From: Lepisosteus oculatus
Lineage: Eukaryota > Chordata > Actinopteri > Semionotiformes > Lepisosteidae
DNA: 64,000 nt
Reading direction: 5' to 3'
Assembly (NCBI RefSeq): GCF_040954835.1
Contig: NC_090709.1
Span: forward strand, 38,994,776 to 39,058,775
Below the pieces are notes generated by a model. That model saw only the letters and a list, made by a program, of their open reading frames with translations, did no database searches and was not told the DNA's origin. The translations under genes were made by a program, and so were the position numbers. Shown one piece after another: positions 13,172 to 58,892 of the stretch (the stretch's first letter is position 1; the number at the start of each line of letters is the position of its first letter).

Positions 13172-16100
13172 CTGCGGAGACAGAGGCGGGTCAGGACCGG
13201 TCAGGACCGGCCGGGCCGCGGTCCGCAGTGAAGACCCACCTGTCTGCTTGCTGCTCCGGCCCCAGCGGGACGCGGCCCCGGCCAGCGACAGGACCAGGCC
13301 CAGCGACAGAGCCCACAGCGCCGTGGCGACCAGCCTCCAGTCCGGTGGGGCCGTCGGGGGCTCTGGGGGGACAGGGGGGTCAGCTCAGCCCACTGGACAC
13401 ACACACACCCCCTGGACAGGACACCAGCCCCTCACTGGACACACACACACACACACCCTGGACAGGACACCAGCCCCTCACAGGACACACACACACACAC
13501 CCTGGACAGGACACCAGCCCCTCACAGGACACACACACACACACCCTGGACAGGACACCAGCCCCTCACAGGACACACACACACACTCACACACCCTGGA
13601 CAGGACACCAGCCCCTCACAGGACACACACACACACACTCACCCCAGGGGGGGTGAGCTCAGCTCACTGGACACACACACACCCCCTGGACAGGACACCA
13701 GCCCCTCACTGGACACACACACACACTCACACACCCTGGACAGGACACCAGCCCCTCACAGGACACACACACTCACTCACACACCCTGGACAGGACACCA
13801 GCCCCTCACAGGACACACACACACACTCACCCCAGGGGGGGTGAGCTCAGCTCACTGGACACACACACACACCCCCTGGACAGGACACCAGCCCCTCACT
13901 GGACACACACACACACTCACACACCCTGGACAGGACACCAGCCCCTCACTGGACACACACACACTCACACACCCTGGACAGGACACCAGCCCCTCACTGG
14001 ACACACACACACACACACCCCAGGGTGGGTGAGCTCAGCTCACTGGACACACACACATCCCCTGGACAGGACACCAGCCCCTCACTGGACACACACACAC
14101 ACTCACACACCCTGGACAGGACACCAGCCCCTCACTGGACACACACACACACTCACACACCCTGGACAGGACACCAGCCCCTCACTGGACACACACACAC
14201 ACACACCCCAGGGTGGGTGAGCTCAGCTCACTGGACACACACACATCCCCTGGACAGGACACCAGCCCCTCACTGGACACACACACACTCACACACCCTG
14301 GACAGGACACCAGCCCCTCACTGGACACACACACACACCCCCTGGACAGGACACCAGCCCCTCACAGGACACACACACACACCCCCTGGACAGGACACCA
14401 GCGCCTCACAGGACACACACACACACACCCTGGACAGGACACCAGCCCCTCACAGGACACACACACACACACACACCCTGGACAGGACACCAGCCCCTCA
14501 CAGGACACACACACACACACCCTGGACAGGACACCAGCCCCTCACAGGACACACACACACACACACTCACACACCCTGGACAGGACACCAGCCCCTCACA
14601 GGACACACACACACTCACACACCCTGGACAGGACACCAGCCCCTCACAGGACACACACACACTCACACACCCTGGACAGGACACCAGCCCCTCACTGGAC
14701 ACACACACACTCACACACCCTGGACAGGACACCAGCCCCTCACTGGACACACACACACTCACCCTGGACAGGACACCAGCCCCTCACTGGACACACACAC
14801 ACACACCCTGGACAGGACACCAGCCCCTCACAGGACACACACACACACACCCTGGACAGGACACCAGCCCCTCACAGGACACACACACACACACCCTGGA
14901 CAGGACACCAGCCCCTCACAGGACACACACACACACACCCTGGACAGGACACCAGCCCCTCACAGGACACACACACACACACCCTGGACAGGACACCAGC
15001 CCCTCACAGGACACACACACACACACCCTGGACAGGACACCAGCCCCTCACAGGACACACACACACACACCCTGGACAGGACACCAGCCCCTCACAGGAC
15101 ACACACACACACACCCTGGACAGGACACCAGCCCCTCACAGGACACACACACACACACCCTGGACAGGACACCAGCCCCTCACAGGACACACACACACAC
15201 ACCCTGGACAGGACACCAGCCCCTCACAGGACACACACACACACACCCTGGACAGGACACCAGCCCCTCACAGGACACACACACACACACCCTGGACAGG
15301 ACACCAGCCCCTCACAGGACACACACACACACACCCTGGACAGGACACCAGCCCCTCACAGGACACACACACACACACACCCTGGACAGGACACCAGCCC
15401 CTCACAGGACACACACACACACACACCCTGGACAGGACACCAGCCCCTCACAGGACACACACACACACACACCCTGGACAGGACACCAGCCCCTCACAGG
15501 ACACACACACACACTCACACACCCTGGACAGGACACACACACACACCCTGGACAGGACACCAGCCCCTCACACACACCCTGGACAGGACACCAGCCCCTC
15601 ACAGGACACACACACACACACCCTGGACAGGACACCAGCCCCTCACAGGACACACACACACACACACCCTGGACAGGACACCAGCCCCTCACAGGACACA
15701 CACACACACACTCACACACCCTGGACAGGACACACACACACACCCTGGACAGGACACCAGCCCCTCACTGGACACACACACACACCCTGGACAGGACACC
15801 AGCCCCTCACAGGACACACTCACACACCCTGGACAGGACACCAGCCCCTCACTGGACACACACACACACCCTGGACAGGACACCAGCCCCTCACAGGACA
15901 CACTCACACTCCCTGGACAGGACACCAGCCCCTCACAGGACACACTCACACTCCCTGGACAGGACACCAGCCCCTCACAGGACACACACACACTCCCTGG
16001 ACAGGACACCAGCCCCTCACAGGACACACACACACACCCTGGACAGGACACCAGCCCCTCACAGGACACACACACACACCCTGGACAGGACACCAGCCCC

Positions 16101-17819
16101 TCACAGGACACACACACACACCCTGGACAGGACACCAGCCCCTCACAGGACACACACACACACCCTGGACAGGACACCAGCCCCTCACAGGACACACACA
16201 CACACTCACACTCACACACCCTGGACAGGACACCAGCCCCTCACTGGACACACTCACACTCCCTGGACAGGACACCAGCCCCTCACAGGACACACACACA
16301 CTCACACTCCCTGGACAGGACACCAGCCCCTCACAGGACACACACACACACACCCTGGACAGGACACCAGCCCCTCACAGGACACACACACACACACCCT
16401 GGACAGGACACCAGCCCCTCACAGGACACACACACACACACCCTGGACAGGACACCAGCCCCTCACAGGACACACTCACACACCCTGGACAGGACACCAG
16501 CCCCTCACTGGACACACACACACACCCTGGACAGGACACCAGCCCCTCACAGGACACACACACACACTCACACACCCTGGACAGGACACCAGCCCCTCAC
16601 AGGACACACACACACACACCCTGGACAGGACACCAGCCCCTCACAGGACACACACACACACCCTGGACAGGACACCAGCCCCTCACAGGACACACTCACA
16701 CTCCCTGGACAGGACACCAGCCCCTCACAGGACACACTCACACTCCCTGGACAGGACACCAGCCCCTCACAGGACACACACACACACCCTGGACAGGACA
16801 CCAGCCCCTCACAGGACACACACACACACCCTGGACAGGACACCAGCCCCTCACAGGACACACACACACACCCTGGACAGGACACCAGCCCCTCACAGGA
16901 CACACACACACACTCACACTCACACACCCTGGACAGGACACCAGCCCCTCACTGGACACACACACACACCCTGGACAGGACACCAGCCCCTCACAGGACA
17001 CACTCACACTCACACTCCCTGGACAGGACACCAGCCCCTCACAGGACACACACACTCCCTGGACAGGACACCAGCCCCTCACAGGACACACACACACTCA
17101 CACACCCTGGACAGGACACCAGCCCCTCACAGGACACACACACACACACTCACCCCAGGGGGGGTGAGCTCAGCTCACTGGACACACACACACCCCCTGG
17201 ACAGGACACCAGCCCCTCACAGGACACACACACACCCTGGACAGGACACCAGCCCCTCACAGGACACACACACACCCTGGACAGGACACAAGCCCCTCAC
17301 AGGACACACACACACCCTGGACAGGACACACACACACACACACCCTGGACAGGACACACACACACACACACACCTCACCCCAGGGGGGGTCAGCTCAGCT
17401 CAGTGGACACACACACACACACACTCACCCCAGGGGGGCTCAGCTCAGTGGACACACACACACACACACACACCCTGGACAGGACACCAGCCCCTCACAG
17501 GACACACACACACCCTGGACAGGACACCAGCCCCTCACAGGACACACACACACCCTGGACAGGACACCAGCCCCTCACAGGACACACACACACCCTGGAC
17601 AGGACACCAGCCCCTCACAGGACACACACACACCCTGGACAGGACACCAGCCCCTCACAGGACACACACACACCCTGGACAGGACACCAGCCCCTCACAG
17701 GACACACACACACCCTGGACAGGACACCAGCCCCTCACAGGACACACACACACCCTGGACAGGACACACACACACACACACCCTGGACAGGACACACACA
17801 CACACACACCCTGGACAGG

Positions 17820-17850
<31 letters not shown>

Positions 17851-17887
17851 GGACAAGACACACACACACACACACACACCCTGGACA

Positions 17888-17925
<38 letters not shown>

Positions 17926-17966
17926 GGACAGGACACACACACACACACACACACACCCTGGACAGG

Positions 17967-17997
<31 letters not shown>

Positions 17998-18293
17998 GGA
18001 CAGGACACACACACACACACACACACACACCCTGGACAGGACACACACACACACACACACACACCCTGGACAGGACACACACACACACACACACACACAC
18101 CCTGGACAGGACACACACACACACACACACACCCTGGACAGGACACACACACACACACACCCTGGACAGGACACACACACACACACACACACACCCTGGA
18201 CAGGACACACACACACACACACCCTGGACAGGACACACACACACACACACCCTGGACAGGACACACACACACACACACACACACCTGGACAGG

Positions 18294-18324
<31 letters not shown>

Positions 18325-18569
18325 GGACAGGACACACACACACACACACACACACCCTGGACAGGACACACACACACACACACACACCCTGGACAGGACA
18401 CACACACACACACACACACACCCTGGACAGGACACACACACACACACACACACACACCCTGGACAGGACACACACACACACACACACACACCCTGGACAG
18501 GACACACACACACACACACACACCCTGGACAGGACACACACACACACACACACACACACCCTGGACAGG

Positions 18570-18600
<31 letters not shown>

Positions 18601-18605
18601 GGACA

Positions 18606-18644
<39 letters not shown>

Positions 18645-18649
18645 GGACA

Positions 18650-18690
<41 letters not shown>

Positions 18691-18695
18691 GGACA

Positions 18696-18730
<35 letters not shown>

Positions 18731-18735
18731 GGACA

Positions 18736-18797
<62 letters not shown>

Positions 18798-21366
18798 CCC
18801 AGGGGGGCTCAGCTCAGCTCAGTGGACACACACACACACACTCACCCCAGGGGGGCTCAGCTCAGTGGACACACACACACACACACTCACCCCAGGGGGG
18901 CTCAGCTCAGTGGACACACACACACACACACACTCACCCCAGGGGGGCTCAGCTCAGTGGACACACACACACACACACTCACCCCAGGGGGGCTCAGCTC
19001 AGTGGACACACACACACACACTCACCCCAGGGGGGGTCAGCTCAGCTCAGTGGACACACACACACACACACACACAGACACACACACACACACACTCACC
19101 CCAGGGGGGGTCAGCTCAGCTCAGTGGACACACACACACACACACACACTCACCCCAGGGGGGGTCAGCTCAGCTCAGTGGACACACACACACACACACT
19201 CACCCCAGGGGGGGTCAGCTCAGCTCAGTGGACACACACACTCACCCCAGGGGGGTCAGCTCAGTGGACACACACACTCACCCCAGGGGGGGTCAGCTCA
19301 GCTCAGTGGACACACACACACACTCACCCCAGGGGGGGTCAGCTCAGCTCAGTGGACACACACACACACACACTCACCCCAGGGGGGGTCAGCTCAGCTC
19401 AGTGGACACACACACACACACACACTCACCCCAGGGGGGGTCAGCTCAGCTCAGTGGACACACACACACACACTCACCCCAGGGGGGGTCAGCTCAGCTC
19501 AGTGGACACACACACACACACTCACCCCAGGGGGGGTCAGCTCAGCTCAGTGGACACACACACACACACTCACCCCAGGGGGGGTCAGCTCAGCTCAGTG
19601 GACACACACACACACACACTCACCCCAGGGGGGGTCAGCTCAGCTCAGTGGACACACACACACACACACTCACCCCAGGGGGGGTCAGCTCAGCTCAGTG
19701 GACACACACACACACACACACACACTCACCCCAGGGGGAGGTCAGCTCAGCTCAGTGGACACACACACACACACACACTCACCCCAGGGGGAGGTCAGCT
19801 CAGCTCAGTGGACACACACACACACTCACCCCAGGGGGAGGTCAGCTCAGCTCAGTGGACACACACACACACACCCCAGGGGGGGTCAGCTCAGCTCAGT
19901 GGACACACACACACACACCCCAGGGGGGGTCAGCTCAGTGGACACACACACACACTCACTCACCCCAGGGGGGGTCAGCTCAGTGGACACACACACACAC
20001 TCACTCACCCCAGGGGGGGTCAGCTCAGTGGACACACACACACACTCACTCACCCCAGGGGGGGTCAGCTCAGTGGACACACACACACACTCACCCCAGG
20101 GGGGGTCAGCTCAGTGGACACACACACACACTCACTCACCCCAGGGGGGGTCAGCTCAGTGGACACACACACACACACTCACCCCAGGGGGGGTCAGCTC
20201 AGTGGACACACACACTCACTCACCCCAGGGGGGGTCAGCTCAGCTCAGTGGACACACACACACACACTCACCCCAGGGGGAGGTCAGCTCAGCTCAGTGG
20301 ACACACACACACACTCACCCCAGGGGGAGGTCAGCTCAGCTCAGTGGACACACACACACACACTCACCCCAGTGGACACACACACACACACTCACCCCAG
20401 TGGACACACACACACACACTCACCCCAGTGGACACACACACACACACTCACCCCAGTGGACACACACACACACACTCACCCCAGGGGGAGGTCAGCTCAG
20501 CTCAGTGGACACACACACACACACACACTCACCCCAGGGGGGGGTCAGCTCAGCTCAGTGGACACACACACTCACCCCAGGGGGGGTCAGCTCAGCTCAG
20601 TGGACACACACACACACACTCACCCCAGGGGGGGTCAGCTCAGCTCAGTGGACACACACACACACACTCACCCCAGGGGGGGTCAGCTCAGCTCAGTGGA
20701 CACACACACACACACTCACCCCAGGGGGGGTCAGCTCAGCTCAGTGGACACACACACACACACTCACCCCAGGGGGGGTCAGCTCAGCTCAGTGGACACA
20801 CACACACACACTCACCCCAGGGGGGGTCAGCTCAGCTCAGTGGACACACACACACACACACTCACCCCAGGGGGGGTCAGCTCAGCTCAGTGGACACACA
20901 CACACACTCACCCCAGGGGGGGTCAGCTCAGCTCAGTGGACACAAACACACACACTCACCCCAGGGGGGTCAGCTCAGCTCAGTGGACACACACACACAC
21001 ACTCACCCCAGGGGGGTCAGCTCAGCTCAGTGGACACACACACACACTCACCCCAGGGGGGGTCAGCTCAGCTCAGTGGACACACACACACTCACCCCAG
21101 GGGGGGTCAGCTCAGCTCAGTGGACACACACACACACACACTCACCCCAGGGGGGTCAGCTCAGCTCAGTGGACACACACACACACACACTCACCCACAC
21201 TCACCCCAGGGGGGGTCAGGTCAGCTCAGTGGACACACACACACACTCACCCCAGGGGGGGTCAGCTCAGCTCAGTGGACACACACACACACACTCACCC
21301 CAGGGGGGTCAGCTCAGCTCAGTGGACACACACACACACACTCACCCCAGGGGGGGTCAGCTCAGT

Positions 21367-21400
<34 letters not shown>

Positions 21401-21643
21401 CAGGGGGGGTCAGCTCAGTGGACACACACACTCACCCCAGGGGGGTCAGCTCAGCTCAGTGGACACACACACACACACTCACCCCAGGGGGGTCAGCTCA
21501 GCTCAGTGGACACACACACACACACTCACCCCAGGGGGGTCAGCTCAGCTCAGTGGACACACACACACTCACCCCAGGGGGGGTCAGCTCAGCTCAGTGG
21601 ACACACACACACACTCACCCCAGGGGGGTCAGCTCAGCTCAGT

Positions 21644-21679
<36 letters not shown>

Positions 21680-24600
21680 CCCAGGGGGGGTCAGGTCAGC
21701 TCAGTGGACACACACACACACTCACCCCAGGGGGGGTCAGCTCAGCTCAGTGGACACACACACACACACTCACCCCAGGGGGGTCAGCTCAGCTCAGTGG
21801 ACACACACACACACACTCACCCCAGGGGGGGTCAGCTCAGTGGACACACACACACACACACACACACACCCCAGGGGGGGTCAGCTCAGTGGACACACAC
21901 ACTCACCCCAGGGGGGTCAGCTCAGCTCAGTGGACACACACACACTCACCCCAGGGGGGTCAGCTCAGCTCAGTGGACACACACACACACTCACCCCAGG
22001 GGGGGTCAGCTCAGCTCAGTGGACACACACACACACTCACCCCAGGGGGGGTCAGCTCAGCTCAGTGGACACACACACACACTCACCCCAGGGGGGGTCA
22101 GCTCAGCTCAGTGGACACACACACACACACTCACCCCAGGGGGGTCAGCTCAGCTCAGTGGACACACACACACACTCACCCCAGGGGGGGTCAGCTCAGC
22201 TCAGTGGACACACACACACACTCACCCCAGGGGGGTCAGCTCAGCTCAGTGGACACACACACACACTCACCCCAGGGGGGGTCAGCTCAGTGGACACACA
22301 CACACACACTCACCCCAGGGGGGTCAGCTCAGCTCAGTGGACACACACACACACACTCACCCCAGGGGGGGTCAGCTCAGCTCAGTGGACACACACACAC
22401 ACTCACCCCAGGGGGGTCAGCTCAGTGGACACACACACACACACACTCACCCCAGGGGGGGTCAGCTCAGTGGACACACACACACTCACCCCAGGGGGGG
22501 TCAGCTCAGTGGACACACACACACACACACTCACCCCAGGGGGGTCAGCTCAGTGGACACACACACACACACTCACCCCAGGGGGGTCAGCTCAGTGGAC
22601 ACACACACACACACTCACCCCAGGGGGGTCAGCTCAGTGGACACACACACACACACACACACACTCACCCCAGGGGGGGTCAGCTCAGTGGACACACACA
22701 CACTCACCCCAGGGGGGTCAGCTCAGTGGACACACACACACTCACCCCAGGGGGGGTCAGCTCAGCTCAGTGGACACACACACACTCACCCCAGGGGGGG
22801 TCAGCTCAGTGGACACACACACACACACTCACCCCAGGGGGGTCAGCTCAGCTCAGTGGACACACACACACACTCACCCCAGGGGGGGTCAGCTCAGCTC
22901 AGTGGACACACACACACACACACTCACCCCAGGGGGGGTCAGCTCAGCTCAGTGGACACACACACACACACTCACCCCAGGGGGGGTCAGCTCAGTGGAC
23001 ACACACACACTCACCCCAGGGGGGGTCAGCTCAGTGGACACACACACACTCACCCCAGGGGGGGTCAGCTCAGTGGACACACACACACTCACCCCAGGGG
23101 GGGTCAGCTCAGTGGACACACACACACTCACCCCAGGGGGGGTCAGCTCAGTGGACACACACACACTCACCCCAGGGGGGGTCAGCTCAGTGGACACACA
23201 CACACTCACCCCAGGGGGGTCAGCTCAGTGGACACACACACACACACACTCACCCCAGGGGGGGTCAGCTCAGTGGACACACACACACTCACCCCAGGGG
23301 GGGTCAGCTCAGTGGACACACACACACACACACACTCACCCCAGGGGGGTCAGCTCAGTGGACACACACACACACACTCACCCCAGGGGGGTCAGCTCAG
23401 TGGACACACACACACACACTCACCCCAGGGGGGTCAGCTCAGTGGACACACACACACACACACACTCACCCCAGGGGGGGTCAGCTCAGTGGACACACAC
23501 ACACTCACCCCAGGGGGGTCAGCTCAGTGGACACACACACACTCACCCCAGGGGGGGTCAGCTCAGTGGACACACACACACACACTCACCCCAGGACACC
23601 CCCTGGACAGGACACCAGCCCCTCACAGGACACACACACACACCCTGGACAGGACACCAGCCCCTCACAGGACACACACACACACACACACACCCCCTGG
23701 ACAGGACACCAGCCCCTCACAGGATACACACACACACCCTGGACAGGACACACACACACTCACCCCAGGGGGGGTCAGCTCAGCTCAGTGGACACACACA
23801 CACACTCACCCCAGGGGGGGTCAGCTCAGCTCAGTGGACACACACACACACACTCACCCCAGGGGGGTCAGCTCAGCTCAGTGGACACACACACACACAC
23901 ACTCACCCCAGGGGGGGTCAGCTCAGCTCAGTGGACACACACACACACACACACACACTCACCCCAGGGCACCACCAGCGGCTGGGCCAGGCTGCGGTGC
24001 TCCACGATGCAGGACAGCTGCTCCGCGGGCCTCGGGCCGGGCTCCAGGAAGGCGTGGGTCTGGTAGAGCCAGTCTCCGTCCGGCGCCGCCCGCTGGACCC
24101 CCCCGGCGCCGCCCCGCCGCCCCGCAGCCAGGTGACGGAGATGCGGGGGGGTAGAAGCCCGTGGCGTGGCACACCAGCACCAGCGAGCCGTCCGCCCCGC
24201 CGCCCAGCGCCGTGATGCTCACCGCCGGCGCCACTGGGGGGGCAGAGCGTCACACTCCAGCCTGTTCCCCACCCCCACCCCCCTCTGTGTACAGCAGAGC
24301 CTCCTGTCCTGACTGGAGGAGCTCACCCAGCTGTGTCTGGAGAGAAGCCAGGGTATCAGCTTCAACCACAGGGCTGGGCAGCTTGTTCCCCACCCCCGCC
24401 CCCCTCTGTGTACAGAAGAGCCTCCTGTCCTGACTGGAGGAGCTCACCCAGCTGTGTCTGGAGAGAAGCCAGGGTATCGGCTTCAACCACAGGGCTGGGC
24501 AGCTTGTTCCCCACCCCCGCCCCCCTCTGTGTACAGAAGAGCCTCCTGTCCTGACTGGAGGAGCTCACCCAGCTGTGTCTGGAGAGAAGCCAGGGTATCG

Positions 24601-28511: not shown

Positions 28512-28627
28512 TCAGCTGCTCACGCAGAAGAGGAGGCAGCCGGTCACGACTCCCAGCATCCCCAGCGCCATCGCCACCCCGCAGACCACCGTCAGGACAG
28601 CGCCGGGCCGGGCCTCAGGGGGCACCT
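28512..28627 (-). CDS. Alpha gene 1 exon 4, connecting peptide, transmembrane helix and stop
   Basis: 116 bp. Reads EVPPEARPGAVLTVVCGVAM, then ALGMLGVVTGCLLFCVSS and TGA (28512-28514). The small-residue GxxGxxxG pattern in the helix suits alpha-beta transmembrane pairing. The tail is only a few residues. Confidence 0.85.
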
Positions 28628-31600
28628 CTGTAGAGACAGGAGACACACGGGGCGCAGGGTCACCCTCACCAGAGAGACAGAGGGGACAGGAGACACACGG
28701 GGCGCAGGGTAACCCTCACCACAGAGACACAGAGGGGACAGGAGACACACGGGGCGCAGGGTCACCCTCACCACAGAGACACAGAGGGGACAGGAGACAC
28801 ACGGGGCGCAGGGTCACCCTCACCACAGAGACACAGAGGGGACAGGAGACACACGGGGCGCAGGGTCACCCTCACCAGAGAGACACAGAGGGGACAGGAG
28901 ACACACGGGGCGCAGGGTCACCCTCACCACAGAGACAGAGGGGACAGGAGACACACGGGGCGCAGGGTCACCCTCACCACAGAGACAGAGGGGACAGGAG
29001 ACACACGGGGCGCAGGGTCACCCTCACCACAGAGACACAGAGGGGACAGGAGACACACGGGGCGCAGGGTCACCCTCACCACAGAGACACAGAGGGGACA
29101 GGAGACACACGGGGCGCAGGGTCACCCTCACCAGAGAGACAGAGGGGACAGGAGACACACGGGGCGCAGGGTCACCCTCACCACAGAGACAGAGGGGACA
29201 GGAGACACACGGGGCGCAGGGTCACCCTCACCACAGAGACAGAGGGGACAGGAGACACACGGGGCGCAGGGTCACCCTCACCAGAGAGACACAGAGGGGA
29301 CAGGAGACACACGGGGCGCAGGGTCACCCTCACCAGAGAGACAGAGGGGACAGGAGACACACGGGGCGCAGGGTCACCCTCACCACAGAGACAGAGGGGA
29401 CAGGAGACACACGGGGCGCAGGGTCACCCTCACCAGAGAGACACAGAGGGGACAGGAGACACACGGGGCGCAGGGTCACCCTCACCAGAGAGACAGAGGG
29501 AACAGGAGACACACGGGGCGCAGGGTCACCCTCACCAGAGAGACAGAGGGGACAGGAGACACACGGGGCGCAGAGTCACCCTCACCAGAGAGACAGGAGA
29601 CACACGGGGCGCAGAGTCACCCTCACCAGAGAGACAGAGGGAACAGGAGACACACGGGGCGCAGGGTCACCCTCACCAGAGAGACAGAGGGGACAGGAGA
29701 CACACGGGGCGCAGGGTCACCCTCACCAGAGAGACACAGAGGGGACAGGAGACACACGGGGCGCAGGGTCACCCTCACCACAGAGACAGAGGGGACAGGA
29801 GACACACGGGGCGCAGGGTCACCCTCACCAGAGAGACAGAGGGGACAGGAGACACACGGGGCGCAGGGTCACCCTCACCAGAGAGACACAGAGGGGACAG
29901 GAGACACACGGGGCGCAGGGTCACCCTCACCACAGAGACAGAGGGGACAGGAGACACACGGGGCGCAGGGTCACCCTCACCACAGAGACAGAGGGGACAG
30001 GAGACACACGGGGCGCAGGGTCACCCTCACCACAGAGACAGAGGGGACAGGAGACACACGGGGCGCAGGGTCACCCTCACCAGAGAGACAGAGGGGACAG
30101 GAGACACACGGGGCGCAGGGTCACCCTCACCACAGAGACAGAGGGGACAGGAGACACACGGGGCGCAGGGTCACCCTCACCAGAGAGACAGAAGGGACAG
30201 GAGACACACGGGGCGCAGGGTCACCCTCACCAGAGAGACAGAGGGGACAGGAGACACACGGGGCGCAGGGTCACCCTCACCAGAGAGACAGAGGGGACAG
30301 GAGACACACGGGGCGCAGGGTCACCCTCACCAGAGAGACACAGAGGGGACAGGAGACACACGGGGCGCAGGGTCACCCTCACCAGAGAGACAGAGAGGGG
30401 ACAGGAGACACACGGGGCGCAGGGTCACCCTCACCACAGAGACAGAGGGGACAGGAGACACACGGGGCGCAGGGTCACCCTCACCACAGAGACAGAGGGG
30501 ACAGGAGACACACGGGGCGCAGGGTCACCCTCACCACAGAGACAGAGGGGACAGGAGACACACGGGGCGCAGGGTCACCCTCACCAGAGAGACAGAGGGG
30601 ACAGGAGACACACGGGGCGCAGGGTCACCCTCACCAGAGAGACAGAAGGGACAGGAGACACACGGGGCGCACGGTCACCCTCACCAGAGAGACAGAGGGG
30701 ACAGGAGACACACGGGGCGCAGGGTCACCCTCACCACAGAGACAGAGGGGACAGGAGACACACGGGGCGCAGGGTCACCCTCACCAGAGAGACAGAAGGG
30801 ACAGGAGACACACGGGGCGCAGGGTCACCCTCACCACAGAGACAGAGGGGACAGGAGACACACGGGGCGCAGGGTCACCCTCACCAGAGAGACAGAGGGG
30901 ACAGGAGACACACGGGGCGCAGGGTCACCCTCACCAGAGAGACAGAGGGGACAGGAGACACACGGGGCGCAGGGTCACCCTCACCAGAGAGACAGAGGGG
31001 ACAGGAGACACACGGGGCGCAGGGTCACCCTCACCACAGAGACAGAGGGGACAGGAGACACACGGGGCGCAGAGTCACCCTCACCAGAGAGACAGAGGGG
31101 ACAGGAGACACACGGGGCGCAGAGTCACCCTCACCAGAGAGACAGAGGGGACAGGAGACACACGGGGCGCAGGGTCACCCTCACCAGAGAGACAGAGGGG
31201 ACAGGAGACACACGGGGCGCAGGGTCACCCTCACCACAGAGACAGAGGGGACAGGAGACACACGGGGCGCAGGGTCACCCTCACCACAGAGACAGAGGGG
31301 ACAGGAGACACACGGGGCGCAGAGTCACCCTCACCAGAGAGACAGAGGGGACAGGAGACACACGGGGCGCAGGGTCACCCTCACCAGAGAGACAGAGGGG
31401 ACAGGAGACACACGGGGCGCAGGGTCACCCTCACCACAGAGACAGAGGGGACAGGAGACACACGGGGCGCAGGGTCACCCTCACCAGAGAGACAGAGGGG
31501 GTATCTATCTGTGCTCCTGGGGCAGGAAGGCAGTACTCAGGCCAGGGCACCCCCAGGGGCAGGAGGGCAGGAGGGCAGTACTCAGGCCAGGCCACCCCCA

Positions 31601-34600
31601 GGGGCAGGAGGGCAGGAGGGGAGGAGGGCAGGAGGGCAGTACTCAGGCCAGGCCACCCCCAGGGGCAGGAGGGCAGGAGGGCAGGAGGGCAGTAGGGCAG
31701 GGGAGCAGGGGAGCAGGGGAGCAGGGGAGCAGGGGAGCAGGGGAGCAGGACTCACCCCAGGCCACCCCCAGGAGCAGGAGGGCAGGAGGGCAGGACTCAC
31801 CCCAGGCCACCCCCAGGAGCAGGAGGGCAGGAGGGCAGGACTCACCCCAGGCCGCCCCCAGGGGCAGGAGGGCAGTACTCACCCCAGGCCGCCCCCAGGG
31901 GCAGGAGGGCAGGAGGGCAGGACTCACCCCAGGCCACCCCCAGGGGCAGGAGGGCAGGAGGGCAGTACTCACCCCAGGCCACCCCCAGGGGCAGGAGGGC
32001 AGGAGGGCAGTACTCACCCCAGGCCACCCCCAGGGGCAGGAGGGCAGGAGGGCAGTACTCACCCCAGGCCACCCCCAGGGGCAGGAGGGCAGGAGGGCAG
32101 TACTCAGGCCAGGCCGCCCCCAGGGGCAGGAGGGCAGGAGGGCAGTACTCAGGCCAGGCCACCCCCAGGGGCAGGAGGGCAGGAGGGCAGGACTCACCCC
32201 AGGCCACCACCAGGGGCCGGCGCAGGGCGCGGTGCTGCAGGTGGCAGGTGTACACGTCGCCCGGCCGGGGGCTGAAGGGCAGCAGCGAGTAGCAGCTGTA
32301 GGTGGCGTCGCGGCGGACCAGCGACAGCGTCTGGGGGGTCGTCCCGGCGACCGGCTCGCCGTTCCGGGCCCAGGCCAGGCCCAGCGGGAAGGGGTAGTAG
32401 CGCTGGGCGGAGCAGATCAGCGTGTTGGGCTCCCCCGGCCGCACCACGCTCTTGGGGTACACCATGGCCACGGGGGGCTCTGCGGGGAGGAGAGGAAGGA
32501 ATCGGGGGTCAGTCGCCATCGTGACCCCCGGCGGACCCACGCAGGGGAGAGAGCTGCTGCTCTCTGGGAACAGCTCGGAGCTTCCCAGCAGGACAGATGG
32601 GGGCCCCCCACCCCCTGCAGGCGGTGAACCCCAGTATTCCCCTGCCATTCCTGGACCAGACAGCCCCCCACCAGAGTGAGGACTGAGCACCAGATGTCCC
32701 TCTATAACAGTGACCCCAACAGCAGGGCTGGGCAGCCTGTTCCCCACCCCCACCCCCCTCTGTGTACAGCAGAGCCTCCTGTCCTGACTGGAGGAGCTCA
32801 CCCAGCTGTGTCTGGAGAGAAGCCAGGGTATCGGCTTCAACCACAGGGCTGGGCAGCTTGTTCCCCACCCCCACCCCCCTCTGTGTACAGAAGAGCCTCC
32901 TGTCCTGACTGGAGGAGCTCACCCAGCTGTGTCTGGAGAGAAGCCAGGGTATCGGCTTCAACCACAGGGCTGGGCAGCTTGTTCCCCACCCCCGCCCCCC
33001 TCTGTGTACAGAAGAGCCTCCTGTCCTGACTGGAGGAGCTCACCCAGCTGTGTCTGGAGAGAAGCCAGGGTATCGGCTTCAACCACAGGGCTCGGCAGCT
33101 TGTTCCCCACCCCCACCCCCCTCTGTGTACAGTAGAGCCTCCTGTCCTGACTGGAGGAGCTCACCCAGCTGTGTCTGGAGAGAAGCCAGGGTATCGGCTT
33201 CAACAGCAGGGCTGGGCAGCCTGTTCCCCACCCCCACCCCCCTCTGTGTACAGCAGAGCCTCCTGTCCTGACTGGAGGAGCTCATCCAGCTGTGTCTGGA
33301 GAGAAGCCAGGGTATCGGCTTCAACAGCAGGGCTGGGCAGCCTGTTCCCCACCCCCACCCCCCTCTGCGTACAGTAGAGCCTCCTGTCCCAGGGTGAAAG
33401 GTGAAAGGTCAGGGTCACCCCCACCCTGTGTGTGCAGCGGACCCGGCCCCGCGGCCCCTCACCGGCGGTCTCTGGCGGGAAGCCCTCGGCGCGGGCGGCG
33501 GTGGCCAGGTTGTTCCTGCAGAGCTGCCTGCTGGCCAGCGCCTGGGCCACAGAGTCCGGCCCCAGGGCGAAGGGGTCAGCGAAGGGGGGCAGCGTGAGGA
33601 CGGCCTGCCGCAGCTCCAGGTCCACGAAGAACATCTGGTCCCCGTCCAGCTGGCCCAGCGCCTGCGACTCCGTGTCGTTGGACAGGCAGGCGGTCAGGTC
33701 CACCGCCCGGTGCAGCACTGGACAGGGACGGGACACACACCGGGCACTGACTGGACACAGGTCACACACCGGGCACACACCGGGCACTGACGGGACACAG
33801 GTCACACACCGGGCACTGACGGGACACAGGTCACACACCGGGCACTGACGGGACACACACGGGTCACTGACGGGACACACACGGGTCACTGACGGGACAC
33901 ACACGGGTCACTGACGGGACACAGGCGAGTCTGTCTCTCACTGTCCATCACTGGACTGGACAGAGACAGGTCACACACAGGGCACTGACGGGACACAGGT
34001 GAGTCTGTCTCTCTCCCTGTACACTGCTCTTCATCACTGAACTGGACACACCCAGGTCATTGACAGAGGACAGATCTACAGGAGTCTCTCTCTCTCTCCC
34101 TCACTGTAAGCCCAGTGATCCGTCTCTCTCTCTCCCTCACTGTAAGCCCAGTGATCCGTCTCTCTCTCTCCCTCACTGTAAGCCCAGTGATCCGTCTCTC
34201 TCTCTCCCTCACTGTAAGCCCAGTGATCCGTCTCTCTCTCTCCCTCACTGTAAGCCCAGTGATCCGTCTCTCTCTCTCCCTCACTGTAAGCCCAGTGATC
34301 CGTCTCTCTCTCTCCCTCACTGTAAGCCCAGTGATCCGTCTCTCTCTCTCCCTCACTGTAAGCCCAGTGATCCGTCTCTCTCTCTCCCTCACTGTAAGCC
34401 CAGTGATCCGTCTCTCTCTCTCCCTCACTGTAAGCCCAGTGATCCGTCTCTCTCTCTCCCTCACTGTAAGCCCAGTGATCCGTCTCTCTCTCTCCCTCAC
34501 TGTAAGCCCAGTGATCCGTCTCTCTCTCTCCCTCACTGTAAGCCCAGTGATCCGTCTCTCTCTCTCCCTCACTGTAAGCCCAGTGATCCGTCTCTCTCTC

Positions 34601-35606: not shown

Positions 35607-35765
35607 CTCACCAGCCAATCACAGCACTCCCCCTCCGAGTCACCGCCTCTCTGCCTCACCAGCCAATCACAGCACTCCCCCTCCGAGTCACCGCCTCTCT
35701 GCCTCACCAGCCAATCACAGCTCTCCCCCTCCGAGTCACCGCCTCTCTGCCTCACCAGCCAATCA
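35607..35765 (-). promoter_or_regulatory. Tandem CCAAT/Y-box-like modules upstream of alpha gene 1
   Basis: A 48-bp unit occurs three times, with a fourth CCAAT at its edge. CCAAT (plus strand) is at 35615, 35663, 35711 and 35759. On the minus strand each full unit reads TGACTCGG, about 20 bp of spacer, then TGATTGGCTGG, i.e. an X2-like element at roughly X-Y distance from a Y-like box. No clear X1 core is seen. The block ends about 120 bp upstream of the ATG. Confidence 0.55.
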
Positions 35766-35834
35766 CGACGCCCCTCTGGTTCTTAAATCACAGCTCGTTT
35801 GTACAGATTTTATTTAATTCAGTTAAAAGCTAAC

Positions 35835-36318
35835 ACTTCACACAGAGAGGGGTGGGGGTGGGGAACAGGCTGCCCAGCCCTGTGCTTGAAGCCGATACCC
35901 TGGCTTCTCTCCAGACACAACTGGGTGAGCTCCTCCAGTCAGGACAGGAGGCTCTGCTGTACACAGAGGGGGGTGGGGGTGGGGAACAGGCTGCCCAGCC
36001 CTGTGCTTGAAGCCGATACCCCGGCTTCTCTCCAGACACAGCTGGATGAGCTCCTCCAGTCAGGACAGGAGGCTCTGCTGTACACAGAGGGGGGTGGGGG
36101 TGGGGAACAAGCTGGCTGAGCTGCTCCAGTCAGGACAGGAGGCTCTACTGTACACAGAGAGGGGTGGGGGTGTGGAACAAGCTGCCCAGCCCTGTGGTTG
36201 AAGCTGATACCCCGGCTTCTCTCCAGACACAGCTGGGTGAGCTCCTCCAGTCAGGACAGGAGGCTCTTCTGTACACAGAGAGGGGTGGGGGCGGGGAACA
36301 AGCTGCCCAGCCCTGCTG
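35835..36318 (+). repeat. Inverted 121-bp satellite upstream of alpha gene 1
   Basis: Four to five copies of the 121-bp unit in the orientation opposite to the intronic copies, some truncated (one lacks the middle, 36110-36170). Confidence 0.9.
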
Positions 36319-49740: not shown

Positions 49741-50052
49741 CTGCATGGCAGCATAGGGGTGCAGGGGTCAGCATTGCTGGTGTCCTGTCCAGGGTGTGTG
49801 TGTGTCCTGTGAGGGGCTGGTGTCCTGTCCAGGGTGTGAGTGTGTGTGTGTCCTGTGAGGGGCTGGTGTCCTGTCCAGGGTGTGTGAGTGAGTGTGTGTG
49901 TGTCCTGTGAGGGGCTGGTGTCCTGTCCAGGGTGTGTGAGTGAGTGTGTGTGTGTCCTGTGAGGGGCTGGTGTCCTGTCCAGGGTGTGTGAGTGTGTGTG
50001 TGTGTGTGTGTCCTGTGAGGGGCTGGTGTCCTGTCCAGGGTGTGTGAGTGAG
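49741..50052 (+). repeat. SINE head fused to a tail-derived minisatellite
   Basis: 49745-49778 resembles the SINE head (GGGGTGCAGGGGTCAGCATT), then jumps directly to about six units of TGGTGTCCTGTCCAGGGTGT plus (GT)n and CCTGTGAGGGGC. This is the satellite A unit of beta gene 1 but in the opposite orientation relative to its host gene. Confidence 0.82.
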
Positions 50053-50078
50053 TGTGTGTCAGTCAATGGTGTCTTACC

Positions 50079-50104: not shown

Positions 50105-53100
50105 CTGCAGAAAGAGAAAGAGAAAAAGGTTGAGGAAGAACACACAGGAGAGAAACTCTTCGTCCAGCCCGCGCACTCAGGGGTTGACTGTGCAGTTTGA
50201 ATGCCACTGATTTACACGGTTCTCCCCATCGGTCGTCTTCGTCTGCCGGTGAGTGAGAGGGGGCTGGACCACACTGCTGTTCTCTCCCTGGTTCTCCTGC
50301 GGTCTCCCTCTGGAAAACGCCGCCTCGCCCGCCTCGCCGTACCTGTGGATTTCTTCCTGTAGTAGAGTCCTCCGGCCAGGGCGAGGCTGAGACCCAGAAC
50401 GAGCCCCGAGGCTCCGATCACGATCTGGTTCCGCTGGGATCCGGGGGCCGGGGGCTCTGCAAGGAGAGGACAGAGACCCCTGCTCCTCAGTCTGGCTCGG
50501 GGTGGGAGAGCAGCTCCCGGACCGCGCGCGAATACACACACCCCCCCGACCCGCGGAGAGTCGCGAGACAGGCGCTGCCTCACCCCTGGGAGTCAGGGGG
50601 TCCCCTCTGGCTCACCCTGGAGCCCCCCAGAGGGGGTCGAGGTGGCGAAGTGGGGTTCACTGACCCCCCCCAGAGGGAACCGGGGTGCCGAGGCAACATG
50701 AGAGGAAGAACGAGGAAGAGGAGGGGATTCAGGCCAGCGTGCCGGCGTGCTCAGGGCTGAAGCAGGGAGGAAGAGGAGGGGATTCAGGCCAGCGTGCCGG
50801 CGTGCTCAGGGCTGAAGCAGGGAGGAAGAGGAGGGGATTCAGGCCAGCGTGCCGGCGTGCTCAGGGCTGAAGCAGGGAGGAAGAGGAGGGGATTCAGGCC
50901 AGTGTGCCGGCGTGCTCAGGGCTGAAGCAGGGAGGAAGAGGAGGGGACTCAGGCCAGCGTGCCGGCGTGCTCAGGGCTGAAGCAGGGAGGAAGAGGAGGG
51001 CGCCTCACCCCACGTGATCTCCAGGGGCGCCCTGAGGCCGCTGTGCTCCACCCTGCAGGCGAGGGTCTCTCCGGGCCTGGGCACGAGCTCCAGGTAGGTG
51101 TGGGTCTGGTAGTGCCAGTCCCCGTCCGCCAGCAGGCCAGTGGAGGTCACGTCCCGCGTCACCGGCGCCCGCCCCCTCAGCCAGGTGACGTTGACGAGCT
51201 GTGGGTAGAACCCCAGCACGTGGCAGGCCAGCGTGGTGGGCTGGCCGGGGCCCCCCAGCCTGCCCTGGGAGATCCTCACCGAGGGCGCCACTGGCAGGGA
51301 AGACCAGGCCACAGCACAGCGGTGAGATCAGAGCGGATCAGATCTCTTCAGCAACCCTGGACACAGAGCCCAGACCCCACCCAGACAGGGGGAGAGGCTA
51401 CCTGCACACATTCAGTGGAGCTTGTATTGCAAAACAGTCCCCTGAAAGGACCAGGCAGACCAACGCAAGCAGAACCCAGCTTGTTGAACGGGGATTACAC
51501 GATCCTGAGTTTCCTCATGACGATCACAAAGCCGCTGTGGGTGAGTCACAGGCGGGGCGAGCAGCAGCTGTCTGATCTGTGACGAGGCCGTCAGGGGGCC
51601 CACAGACAGGGCAGGGCGCTGTGGTCCTCATCAGATCACTTCAAGACCCGCAGCAGCACGGAGGACGGCCCTCTGAGCTGGGCTGGCCGAGAGCCCCATT
51701 TCCAGCTCCCTCAGTCTGCCCGAGTGGGGCAGGAGCAGCGATTCTGAGCACAGGATCCTGAATTCAACGCCTTTATTTGAGGGGAAAGTTTTGTGAAATA
51801 ACCCGGCAGTGTGCCAGCGAAATAAACACTGCGACTGGCAGGCATGGCGCAGTGAGAAAGAGCTCGGTCACGGTCGCGAGAGCAGCGGGCGGCGGACACA
51901 CACAGGCCGGCCCACGAGAGCTGAGGCTCACCTGTCTTCTCCAGGATATGGTCGTAGGCGAGCTCAAGATTGGGTTTGCAGAAGGTGTTCCTGATAGTCA
52001 CCACTCTCGCCTTCGACTGCGGATCGCTGTTCCACCTCTCTGCGACCTTCGCCCCGTACTCAGTGTACCCCACAAACTGACCCGCCCGGCTGTCATAGTG
52101 AATCAACTCCTTTCTCTCAAAGACATAACTCTCAACGTAGACGACGTCATCCGGGCTCCTCGAACTGAACTGACACGAACCTGAAAACTGGTAGACATGT
52201 CCCTCTGAAACACAGAACAGACATCGTCTTCAGTGTCATGATGTCCAGCAGGTGTGTTACAGTCAAGCTCCATCGCGGATTTCGTTTTTATTTGGCCACT
52301 GGTTTCCCAGCAAGAGCACGTTTGCGACACATTAGAAATCGACGTACTGTAGATCCGACACAACCTTGTTATTCTCAGACTGTCAGACTGGGTTTGAGCC
52401 CCTGGCATTAGAGAGAGAGAGTCTGTGTTCAGTGAAGCCCCAGGACCTTCCCTGGGGTGTTCATCAGCTGCAGAAGAGCCACCCAGGTTGTTCGATTGCT
52501 GTTTGCCCGGGCCAATCGAGACAATCTGATCTGAAAATACAATGGGGATTTCTTGACGATGGCCAGACCCCTCTCTGCTCTCCTGATGCGGCCCAGAGTT
52601 CCGCACAGCAGCAGCACAGGTGCAGTCTCCTGTCTTTTGGATGCAGTAACACTGTTATGTGTTCAGTGGTGCTAGAAAGTCTGGGAACCCTTTCCCACAT
52701 TTCTGCATAAATTTGACCTAACATGTGATCAGATCTTCATCTAAGTCATGAAAACAGATCAAGAGAACCCTATAAAACACATAACACACAAAAGGATATA
52801 CCTTTTCATTTACTGATTGATCAAAATGATCCGGCATTAAATGTCTTTGTCGGAAAAAGTATGTGAACCTCTAGGATGATCAGTTCAGTTAAGATGAGGA
52901 TCTGAGCACATTTTAGGTTAAATTTCTGCAGAAACTCAGAACATGCTGGCACCACTGGACACACCTGTACGTACTGCTATTGCAGGTACAAACTGCAGCA
53001 TTAGTTTGTCCTTATTAGTAAAAAAGTCACAAATCATTTTCGTTCCAGAACTGCTGTCAGTTTGAAAAAACAGTTTGTTCTTGAGACGTTCCCTCCATTG

Positions 53101-54780: not shown

Positions 54781-55095
54781 TACTTGGCACAGTGGTGCAG
54801 TGTTTAGCATTGCTGGGCCCTGGGTTCAGTTCCTGGGTGCCGTCTGTGTGGAGTCTGCATGTTCTCCCGTGTTGGACTGGTGTCCCGTGTTGGACTGGTG
54901 TCCAGGGAGGGGCTGGTGTCCAGGGAGGGGCTGGTGTCCAGTGTTGGAGTGGTGTCCAGGGAGGGGCTGGTGTCCAGTGTTGAGCTGGTGTCCAGTGTTG
55001 AGCTGGTGTCCAGGGAGGGGCTGATGTCCAGTGGGGGGCTGATGTCCAGTGGGGGGCTGGTGTCCAGTGGGGGGCTGGTGTCCAGTGGGGGGCTA
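54781..55095 (+). repeat. SINE head plus tail-derived minisatellite 3' of alpha gene 2
   Basis: 54781-54865 matches the fish SINE head (GTGGTGCAGTGTTTAGCATT, CTGTGTGGAGTCTGCATGTTCTCC style). It is followed by about 12 short units of GGACTGGTGTCCAGGGAGGG/GGCTGGTGTCCAGTG. Directly adjacent to the stop codon of alpha gene 2, so within its likely 3' UTR or 3' UTR intron. Confidence 0.82.
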
Positions 55096-55250: not shown

Positions 55251-57338
55251 CTGTAGTTGGACAAATGACATGATGACACAGTCGCTGTCCCCCTTGTTGA
55301 GCAGGGTGGCCCTGTCACCCCCTGCTCTGGCTCTCTGCAGAAGGACACACAGGGCTTCTCTCCAGCACGTTACTTCAAGACAGGAGCTTGTGTTTGACGT
55401 GCAGAGCTGATTTCTAACACTGGTCAGACTCGGCCAGGTGAGACGGACTTGTCACTGTTAGAGAACATCTTTCATTTACTGAAATCACTGCTCCACGCCC
55501 ACAGCTCTTCCCAGGACACGGAATCAGTACAAACCTCTTATCTCATTCTTGTCACTGTAGCGACACAGGCAACACTTAGGGAAAACACAGCCCCACTGGG
55601 GGGACCGTCTGAGCGCGTCTGTCTCGCCGAGGGAAGCGTCTCTGGACGGCGGCGTCAGAGGGAGCCCTGCACTCACCCCAGAGTCTGGCGAGGGGCTCGG
55701 GCAGGGCGCTGTGCTGCACCTGGCAGGAGTAGACGTCGCCCAGCCGGGGTGTGAAGGGCAGGAAGGAGAAGACCTTGAAGCTGAAGTCTCTCCCAGAGAG
55801 CGGTGTGGTCTGGGTGACGCCCTCGGTGACTGGCCTGTCGTTGTGGGTCCAGGTCACCCCGATACCCATCGGGTGGAAGTCCGTGACGGAGCAGATGAGC
55901 GTGTTGGGCTTCCCCAGCTCGACGCTGTCTCTGGGGTACACCATCGCAGTAGGCGCATCTGAGGGCATGCAGAAATGGTCTCACCATGCTGGATGGACGA
56001 AGGTACTGATGACATCATCCACAGTTTCCTTACTGACACAGCTCTGGGCTCCTCATTCTCAGTTGTCAAATTACCCTTCAGACCTGGGGAGTTCATAGTC
56101 AATCCTTGTCTTTAAAATCACAATTATGTAGGAGAAACAGATGAAAGTTATGGTCCTGGGCCGGAGTGGTGACCTCCTGTCTGCTCTGGTCTGATGATTG
56201 TTAGATCTCACCCAGCTGTGTCTGGAGAGAAGCCAGGGTATCGGCTTCAACCACAGGGCTGGGCAGCCTGTTACCCACCCCCACCCCCCTCTGTGTACAG
56301 TAGAGCCTCCTGTCCTGACTGGAGGAGCTCACCCAGCTGTGTCTGGAGAGAAGCCAGGGTATCGGCTTCAACCACAGGGCTGGGCAGCTTGTTCCCCACC
56401 CCCGCCCCCCTCTGTGTACAGAAGAGCCTCCTGTCCTGACTGGAGGAGCTCACCCAGCTGTGTCTGGAGAGAAGCCAGGGTATCGGCTTCAACCACAGGG
56501 CTGGGCAGCCTGTTCCCCATCCTGTGACATCCCGCTGTAAGGATGCTTCCCAGCAGAAGGACAGCTGGTGTGGACGAGGCACAGGCTGAGGTATACGTGT
56601 CTGGTTTAGAGCGGTACAGGTCTGAAAGCACGACGCGCTGGTGGAGTAAGGAATGGGGGAGACGATAAATAAACAAGACTGTTGCCACCTCACCCTTCCT
56701 CTCCGGAGGGTATCCTTCGGCCTTTGCCACTTTCATCAGGTTGTTTCTGCAGAACTCCCTGTTACCCAGGGCCAGTGGCACCCACTCCCCACCAGGGCTG
56801 ATGGGGTCTGCGAACTGTGGGAGCGTCATGACCACCTCTTCCCGGTCAAAATCTATGTAGGCGACCCCCTCCCCATCCAGCTGCAACTCACTTAAAGTTC
56901 TAGTGACGTTGGACTGGCAGGCAGTTAAAAGGAAGCCATGATGCAGAACTGCAAGAGAAACCAAAATAGTTTGATCAGATACGACGCAGCTTCTTCAGGT
57001 TGTACTGCCGGTTCACAGCAGGAGCGTTCTGCGAGGTGGACGGACGGGTCTTCCCTTGTCCACTCTGCCCGCAGAGTGAGGGCTCTGTGACACCGCCACA
57101 CTTACCAGGAAGATCCAAGCTTTTGCAGAAAGGTTACAAATGTGCAAATAAAAATATCCCGCTCAAGTCCACACGACAGATTATGATAAATGATCCGATA
57201 TTACAATGTTGTTTTGTTTGTTTGTTTGTTTGTTTGTTTGTTTTTGGTAGAGTAAGAAAACAGTGTTTACTTACCATTAGCACGAACCCCACACCAGGCA
57301 GCTGCCAGAAACACACCTAGGACCTGGAAGAATGTCAT
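55120..57338 (-). CDS. MHC class II alpha chain, alpha gene 2
   Basis: Four coding exons join in frame: 57275-57338, 56694-56948, 55677-55958, 55120-55250 (732 bp, 243 residues). Order: signal peptide (1-21), alpha-1 (22-106), Ig-like alpha-2 (107-200), connecting/transmembrane/tail (201-243). Alpha-1 has the fish-type Cys pair (LLTACQSN, REFCRNN) and an NVT sequon. The helix carries GxxxGxxGxxxG. The tail ends FFLIKGSSCN. Intact and compact; the start is fixed by the downstream position relative to a TATA-like element and an X-Y module with classical spacing. Its partner is most simply the product of beta gene 2, 1.3 kb downstream. A minisatellite lies directly 3' of the stop. Confidence 0.93.
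55677..55958 (-). CDS. Alpha gene 2 exon 3, Ig-like alpha-2 domain
   Basis: 282 bp, phases 1-1. DAPTAMVYPRDSVELGKPNT, LICSVTDFHPMGIGVTWTHN, FLPFTPRLGDVYSCQVQHSA and PLARLWG. Both Ig cysteines and the core Trp are present. Confidence 0.94.
56205..56525 (-). repeat. 121-bp satellite in intron 2 of alpha gene 2
   Basis: About 2.7 copies of the same 121-bp unit and orientation as in alpha gene 1 and beta gene 1. Confidence 0.93.
56694..56948 (-). CDS. Alpha gene 2 exon 2, alpha-1 domain
   Basis: 255 bp, phases 1-1. VLHHGFLLTACQSNVTRTLS, DGEGVAYIDFDREEVVMTLP, FADPISPGGEWVPLAL and FCRNNLMKVAKAEGYPPERK. Same length and cysteine pattern as alpha gene 1 exon 2. Confidence 0.93.
57211..57246 (+). repeat. 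(TTTG)n microsatellite in intron 1 of alpha gene 2
   Basis: About eight uninterrupted TTTG units. Confidence 0.9.
57275..57338 (-). CDS. Alpha gene 2 exon 1, signal peptide
   Basis: ATG at 57336-57338; MTFFQVLGVFLAAAWCGVRA then donor GTAAG, phase 1, 64 bp as in alpha gene 1. Confidence 0.88.
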
Positions 57339-58613: not shown

Positions 58614-58892
58614 CTACTGGGCTGGTGGCCAGTGAGGGGCTGGGATCCTGTGATGGACTGGTGTCCAGGGAGGGGCTGGGGTCCTGTGATGGATTGGTGT
58701 CCAGGGAGGGGCTGGGATCCTGTGATGGACTGGTGTCCAGGGAGGGGCTGGTGTCCTGTGATGGACTGGTGTCCAGAGAGGGGCTGGGGTCCTGTCCAGG
58801 CCGTACCCTGCCTTGCTCCCAGTGTGTGCTGGGATAGACCCCAGCTCCCTGTGCCCCTGTCCTGGATAAAGCCGTGAGAAAGTAGATGGACG
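58614..58892 (+). mobile_element. SINE tail with local amplification
   Basis: Four repeats of GATGGACTGGTGTCCAGGGA lead into CCTGTCCAGGCCGTACCCTG, 'gctgggatagaccccagct' and GATAAAGCCGTGAGAAAGTA, the standard 3' tail of the ubiquitous fish SINE. Confidence 0.75.

Follow-up and report, generated by a model that had tools for sequence, protein, structure and literature searches.

Minisatellites lying at exon/intron edges include the repeats of amphioxus Adh3, reportedly published in Nucl Acids Res in 2002, and the minisatellite of human IFI6 (6-16), which Turri is said to have described in 1995 as giving multiple splice donors. The amphioxus repeats, termed 'mirages', are minisatellite-like tandem duplications of exon/intron boundaries in Adh3 and globin genes that are reported to leave splicing undisturbed, the units measuring 10-72 bp in Adh3 and 150-160 bp in BflGb6, of which one haplotype has 3 units and another 6 (PMC3087553). 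Two units of the IFI6 minisatellite are reported as used donors (PMC4526556), and dual-specific splice sites, at which AGGT acts as both donor and acceptor, have been described in tandem repeats of UBC and VCX3A (PMC10809524). Here we describe intron 3 of two major histocompatibility complex (MHC) class II genes, beta gene 1 (beta1) and alpha gene 1 (alpha1), on the minus strand of a 64,000-nucleotide (nt) stretch of the gar Lepisosteus oculatus (NC_090709.1, positions 38,994,776 to 39,058,775; hereafter the window). The gar introns belong to the mirage kind as a larger variant that takes up the whole intron: in contrast to the amphioxus arrays, the 10.6-kb intron of beta1, a vertebrate MHC gene, is occupied by ~110 units of ~48 nt and by a further array, and the unit links the donor edge with sequence from the 3' region of the same intron. 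With a probability of roughly two in three, these arrays are boundary-spanning minisatellites that arose by tandem duplication over the exon/intron boundary via C-rich microhomology, followed by array growth, with exon definition keeping the first donor in use.

Behind the real donor, its 9-mer GGGGTGAGT recurs 111 times in intron 3 of beta1, array C accounting for 107 copies and array A for 4, and never in antisense orientation; unit numbers rest on the assembly of ~10 kb of short repeats. A sequence-only reading of the window had noted that satellite C, the repeat of array C, contains the exon-3/intron-3 junction 20-mer on the transcript strand. The window indeed holds 101 instances of this 20-mer, CCCTGGGGTGAGTGTGTGTG, all within 13,630-23,969 on the minus (transcript) strand and none on the plus strand, and the one at 23,950-23,969 is the genuine junction (7 exonic and 13 intronic nt). 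The same reading saw a 10.6-kb intron built from about 100 copies of its donor site; length and copy number stand (10,600 nt and 111 copies), but array C (~5.2 kb, mean donor spacing 48 nt) accounts for only about half of the intron, the remaining half being satellite A, which also interrupts array C briefly at ~23,596-23,750. Its description of about 100 decoys right behind the real donor is borne out by the 111 copies, the word 'decoy' being appropriate only if these copies are unused. The real donor and 106 decoys are the same over 11 nt and have equal U1 pairing energies of -12.3 kcal/mol, compared with -14.0 kcal/mol for a consensus donor and -9.8 kcal/mol for the donor of beta gene 2 (beta2). 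The claim that the donor was kept and the acceptor lost is right for the array C unit, which lacks the intron's CAG; it does not extend to the whole intron, where satellite A units carry CAG and acceptor-like AGs are thus present (150 CAG and 125 YAGG). A common ancestral unit for satellites A and C was rejected, as the two have only a (GT)n run in common (210 of 1000 shuffles score as high).

Both halves of the array C unit have a counterpart at an edge of the intron. Written as (GT)nCCACTGAGCTGAGCTGACCCCCC(C)TGGGGTGAGT, with GAGCT once or twice and C six to eight times, the unit consists of CTGAGCTGA, a run of 6-8 C, the exon-edge/donor sequence TGGG/GTGAGT and (GT)n; left of the C run it corresponds to the intron's last bases and right of it to the exon-3 edge and donor. 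The resemblance of the left half to the intron end, also pointed out from sequence earlier, proved specific: the unit core CCACTGAGCTGAGCTGACCCCCC is identical to the last 40 nt of the intron at 21 of 23 positions, a match equalled by none of 1000 dinucleotide shuffles. The string CTGAGCTGACCCCCC lies near the acceptor in this intron tail. CTGAC, present in the intron-end half of the unit, begins in the real tail 21 nt upstream of exon 4, where a branch point would be expected, and may be branch-like. The two parent strings, GGTGGTGCCCTGGGGTGAGT in the exon and CTGAGCTGACCCCCCTGTCCCCCCAG at the intron end, are each present once, and the unit junction CTGA-C6to8-TGGGGTGAGT occurs 91 times (27 + 63 + 1). 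Since CCCTG is present both in CCCCCCTGTCC, the intron end, and in GTGCCCTGGGG, the exon edge, one tandem duplication with breakpoints there gives the unit and loses the true acceptor. CTGAC followed by at least four further C is found 97 times in the intron, so that most array C units resemble a small intron without its acceptor. The amplified short ancestral intron proposed in the sequence-only reading receives partial support, the opposite polarity being an array that homogenised both intron ends. For 102 C runs of array C there is an AG within the next 12 nt, which is the one in GTGAG; we judge this in-unit AG to be a poor acceptor. As a separate observation, (GAGCT)1-2 stands near GGGGT in the array C unit (18,785-23,969), and AGCT occurs 169 times in array C and 13 times in array A, an arrangement that we take to be reminiscent of immunoglobulin switch repeats.

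A second, independent case of boundary capture is found in intron 3 of alpha1. Its donor-side array repeats a 45-nt unit, in which the terminal 20 nt of exon 3 are followed by the initial 25 nt of the intron; the genuine junction forms the first of these units. Thirteen copies lie behind it, eight of them live, with GGGGTGAGT, and five dead (GGCCTGAGT), including the two closest to the real donor. Where the exon copy has TGGTGG, the 13 that follow uniformly have TGGGGG. Each parent string, GCGCCGGCCCCTGGTGGTGGCC on the exon side and CTTCCTGCCCCAGGAGCACAG on the intron side, is present once, in comparison with 13 copies of the unit junction; CTTCCTGCCCCAGGAGCACAG, the right-hand parent, persists at the inner end of the array and has CCCC in common with the exon parent. 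With a unit length divisible by three, the array can be read in the exon-3 frame as far as a stop at intron nt 354. Of the eight live decoys, the five nearest the junction keep this frame (+45, 60, 75, 90 and 105 amino acids) and the other three leave it; one of the two remaining frames of the consensus unit is also open. The acceptor-side array ends 7 nt before exon 4, and 57 GGTGAG with U1 pairing of about -8.6 kcal/mol occur in 28,600-31,520. In beta1 and alpha1 alike, the true donor recurs, the 12-mer at the true acceptor being present once, which raises the question of why true donors, and not true acceptors, were copied in both introns. The plus strand of the alpha1 donor-side array (31,520-32,217) also carries GGGCAGGAGG, which we take to be like the classical human minisatellite core.

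Features of the beta1 and alpha1 introns 3 and of the paralogous introns, in window coordinates
Feature	Position	Strand	Annotation
Exon 3 of MHC class II beta1 (second, immunoglobulin-like domain), 271 nt, frame broken	23963..24233	-	P0026 match
Intron 3 of beta1, 10,600 nt, tandem arrays 99.6%	13363..23962	-	
Authentic 5' splice site of beta1 intron 3, GGG/GTGAGT	23957..23962	-	
Array C, ~110 units, 107 decoy donors, takes in 7 nt of exon 3	18785..23969	-	
Array A, 44-nt satellite, 4 donor units interspersed	13397..18771	-	
Last 40 nt of beta1 intron 3: 21/23 unit-core match, branch-like CTGAC, true acceptor CAG	13363..13402	-	
Exon 4 of beta1 (connecting/transmembrane)	13240..13362	-	P0026 match
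Intron 3 of alpha1, 3,570 nt, arrays 99.3%	28628..32197	-	
Donor-side array of alpha1 intron 3, 45-nt unit	31520..32217	-	
Acceptor-side array of alpha1 intron 3, 50-nt unit	28635..31500	-	
Intron 3 of beta2, 552 nt, single-copy donor, 55-nt repeat from just inside the intron	50457..51008	-	
Intron 3 of alpha gene 2, 426 nt, beta1 donor 9-mer as single copy	55251..55676	-	

Several traits of amphioxus mirages recur at these boundaries. The repeats span the exon-intron boundary, extending into exon 3 by 7 nt in beta1 and by 20 nt in alpha1; many but not all units keep splice signals (107 decoys in ~110 array C units, 8 of 13 live in alpha1); and the interior is homogenised next to a distinct boundary copy in alpha1 (TGGTGG against 13 TGGGGG), while the beta1 unit types are grouped in blocks along array C. 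This last test is weak, as the alpha1 exon copy is also under coding constraint. Mirages are further characterised by undisturbed regular splicing, for which the gar observation consists of authentic-edge joins in two annotation proteins, and by length instability between haplotypes or somatic cells. IFI6 resembles the gar genes in that its exon/intron edge carries a minisatellite with donor-bearing units, the in-frame alpha1 array being the closer likeness; it differs in that its units are used donors, whereas the gar copies are putative donors and the annotation proteins show no inserts. In UBC and VCX3A, too, the introns lie within tandem repeats bearing splice sites, but dual-specific splicing was rejected for the gar, as the unit has GG/GT and AGGT occurs three times in the 10,600-nt beta1 intron and not at all in that of alpha1. 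Other boundary-crossing repeats or duplications also alter the supply of splice sites but make new introns or longer exons, whereas in the gar an existing intron was inflated; human boundary-crossing repeats average ~4 units of 30 bp. Among the matches listed for the terms used in the open-access literature, no such array in a vertebrate MHC gene appeared; the nearest vertebrate MHC report among them concerns a minisatellite marker in the 3' untranslated region of salmon Sasa-DAA (PMC2386828).

Donor capture is restricted to these two introns among the sites compared. In an exact 12-mer test of nine donors (one in two registers), a set that does not include the alpha1 exon 2 donor, recurrence within the own intron was found only for the exon-3 donors of beta1 and alpha1; the 12-mer of the exon-3 donor of alpha gene 2 (alpha2) is the beta1 string, and it is single in its own gene. 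Five further exon ends gave no recurring 12-mer at 47436, 35425, 25796 and 33470 (25796 and 33470 not being exactly on a donor) and, at 28515 (alpha1 exon 4), one 12-mer present five times, past a donor-like GTGAGC in a GTGTGT-type repeat. Strong donors (U1 pairing of -11 kcal/mol or better) on either strand were found in only 6 of 24 merged arrays of at least 200 bp, so a general donor excess in arrays was rejected. Of the 141 minus-strand strong donors, 113 lie in the merged array of the beta1 intron and 4 in the alpha1 donor-side array; outside arrays, 28,921 bases hold 29 (16 minus and 13 plus). The array with GGTAAGAAG at 37.8-45.1 kb pairs weakly with U1 (-8.2 kcal/mol). The beta1 unit core did not match the intron-3 tails of beta2, alpha1 and alpha2 (589, 782 and 589 of 1000 shuffles as good) or their whole introns 3 (10, 100 and 52 of 100), the beta2 and alpha2 stretches compared stopping 1 and 4 nt before the acceptor. 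In beta2, the 55-nt repeat of intron 3 (50,712-51,000) has a pyrimidine tract ending in CAG in each unit, which may offer decoy acceptors.

The class II setting and the splice edges were examined with protein evidence. Two exon-2 translations (25,284-24,982 and 52,211-51,927) carry MHC class II beta domains according to Pfam, which also placed alpha domains together with C1-set domains in two alpha genes. Queried alone, the final 46 codons of beta1 exon 3 gave no Pfam match, and beta1 exon 2 alone gave no match as a protein-search query. The joined exon 2-3 query of alpha2 is 92% identical to a L. oculatus record, and a joined beta1/alpha1 query is 100% identical over the best stretch (53% of the query) to the L. 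oculatus proteins P0025 and P0026. Aligned to the window with tblastn, P0026 covers beta1 exon 3 (24234..23962) and then exon 4 (13361..13239), both at 100%. The two edges of beta1 intron 3, as proposed from sequence, thus agree with this independent annotation protein. The exon 3-exon 4 join of beta1 is at the authentic edges in both proteins (VVPW/EPP in P0025), and the alpha1 junction reads VVAW/EVPP in both, free of inserts. P0025 (587 amino acids) and P0026 (524 amino acids) are alpha1-beta1 fusions in one reading frame (47,594-13,101, minus strand), reflecting either a read-through transcript or an annotation artefact. The frameshift in exon 3 (23,963-24,233) is also found in the matching P0026, P0025 being intact there and differing in a few residues of exons 2 and 3.

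The spliced junctions considered here come from the annotation proteins only. As donor strength is equal in the real site and its copies, only position and exon context can decide between them. For equal donors under exon definition, the donor nearest to the upstream acceptor is preferred, exclusively so in five minigenes, whereas an intron-centric rule favours the copy nearest to the 3' splice site when introns are short (PMC9225289). Because the 271-nt exon 3 of beta1 sits between a 753-nt intron 2 and a 10,600-nt intron 3, the first donor should win, and the authentic-edge joins in P0025 and P0026 appear to fit the prediction of the exon-centric proximity rule. GTGA(GT)4 or longer follows 105 of the 111 beta1 decoys, and (GT)12 follows the real donor; a (UG)n context has been described for cryptic donors repressed by TDP-43 (preprint PMC12667841). 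The decoys are predicted to be on average more buried than the real donor, but 17 of 111 are as open or more, and RNA structure as sole discriminator was therefore rejected. Retained pieces contain a stop codon for all 111 decoys, so a leak in beta1 would be unproductive.

Duplication over the boundary would have proceeded in three steps. First, judging from the edge sequences, a segment running from the last nucleotides of exon 3 into the intron would have been duplicated in tandem, extending in beta1 to the C-tract just before the acceptor; the microhomology would be CCCTG in beta1 and CCCC in alpha1, and the duplicate would carry the donor but not the CAG of the acceptor. Second, the unit may have multiplied to ~110 copies by unequal exchange and by slippage at the (GT)n and C runs, satellite A probably growing within the same beta1 intron. 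Third, the first donor, as joined in the annotation proteins, would still be spliced through exon definition of exon 3. Silencing of the decoys may be aided by their burial in local structure and, for most of them, by the (UG)n that follows, a TDP-43-type context.

Several points weigh against this explanation. Array C is separated from the intron tail by satellite A, which itself matches the last 60 nt of the intron (0 of 1000 shuffles as good), so a single clean duplication is too simple. No trace of the beta1 unit core is found in the paralogous introns 3 of beta2, alpha2 and alpha1, although we judge these too diverged for the mismatch to count as a refutation. Regarding donor choice, the upstream donor was preferred in just 60% of annotated events with donor pairs of equal strength, and downstream donors were in the majority before the strength filter (PMC9225289). 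The junction evidence consists of annotation products, and P0026, the one that matches the window, is frameshifted in exon 3. Moreover, silencing through UG binding cannot discriminate alone, given the (GT)12 behind the real donor, and predicted accessibility separates real from decoy donors only in part (17/111).

We consider it unlikely that an ordinary GT-rich intronic minisatellite in a longer intron was spread by conversion and homogenised both ends, the junction match being a result and not the origin. Tandem arrays do make up 54.8% of the window, and satellite A, with its common (GT)n run, has an other-strand relative at 49,776-50,059, so such satellites are not tied to beta1 intron 3. 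However, 20 nt of the alpha1 unit are true coding sequence, and with TGGTGG in the exon and TGGGGG in the 13 copies, the exon is the more natural parent than product; the beta1 unit core, moreover, finds no match in the alpha1 intron (100 of 100 shuffles as good), which leaves two unrelated units with the same boundary capture.

The double frameshift of beta1 exon 3 relative to the expected reading, and the difficulty of assembling unit counts in such arrays, would fit a beta1 that is a dying gene or an assembly product, with no working transcript and an array devoid of splicing meaning. This is improbable in our view, as the L. oculatus protein P0025 has an intact exon 3 with the same exon 3-exon 4 join, and the same phenomenon is seen in alpha1, whose exons 2-4 are open.

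Actual use of the copies, with the beta1 decoys acting as a brake through unproductive splicing and the alpha1 decoys producing a variable stalk of PLGVAWGEYCPPALL repeats from the immunoglobulin domain to the membrane, is very unlikely: the stops behind 111 of 111 beta1 decoys, the alpha1 array open to intron nt 354 with five in-frame live decoys and the precedent of IFI6 repeat units as donors (PMC4526556) speak for it, but P0025 and P0026 have an insert at neither junction, the exon-centric rule prefers the upstream donor, and the second open frame of the alpha1 consensus unit makes openness by itself weak evidence.

Origin by duplication over the boundary could be extended to a broader proposal, which we regard as a long shot: both chains of one MHC class II pair would carry whole-intron mirages (acceptor-less mini-introns in beta1), array growth would have switched exon 3 from intron to exon definition, thereby confining splicing to the first of the 112 donors that share one 9-mer, and array length would be a haplotype-specific dial on decoy leak, unproductive in beta and yielding a variable in-frame stalk in alpha. 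Irrespective of this proposal, beta1 amounts to a natural experiment on donor choice, with one authentic donor and 106 copies that are the same over 11 nt (111 over 9 nt), of which the last should be used under the intron-centric proximity rule and the first under the exon-centric rule. The cost of errors can be compared between two genes of one locus, with stops in beta1 and a partly in-frame array in alpha1, and the C-rich microhomology provides an edge-level model for the start of boundary minisatellites.

Further repeats lie near these genes. Satellite A-like repeats occur on the plus strand at 49,776-50,059, just past beta2 exon 4, and at 54,865-55,094 and 58,619-58,795, the latter two resemblances being judged by eye. 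One 121-bp tandem repeat is present in intron 2 of beta1 (24,258-24,936), alpha1 (32,723-33,389) and alpha2 (56,207-56,519) and again upstream of the alpha1 leader exon (35,840-36,305), alpha and beta genes having diverged anciently. Also upstream of this leader exon, a 48-bp repeat (35,607-35,766) contains CCAAT/ATTGG boxes, possibly a multiplied Y-box-like element.

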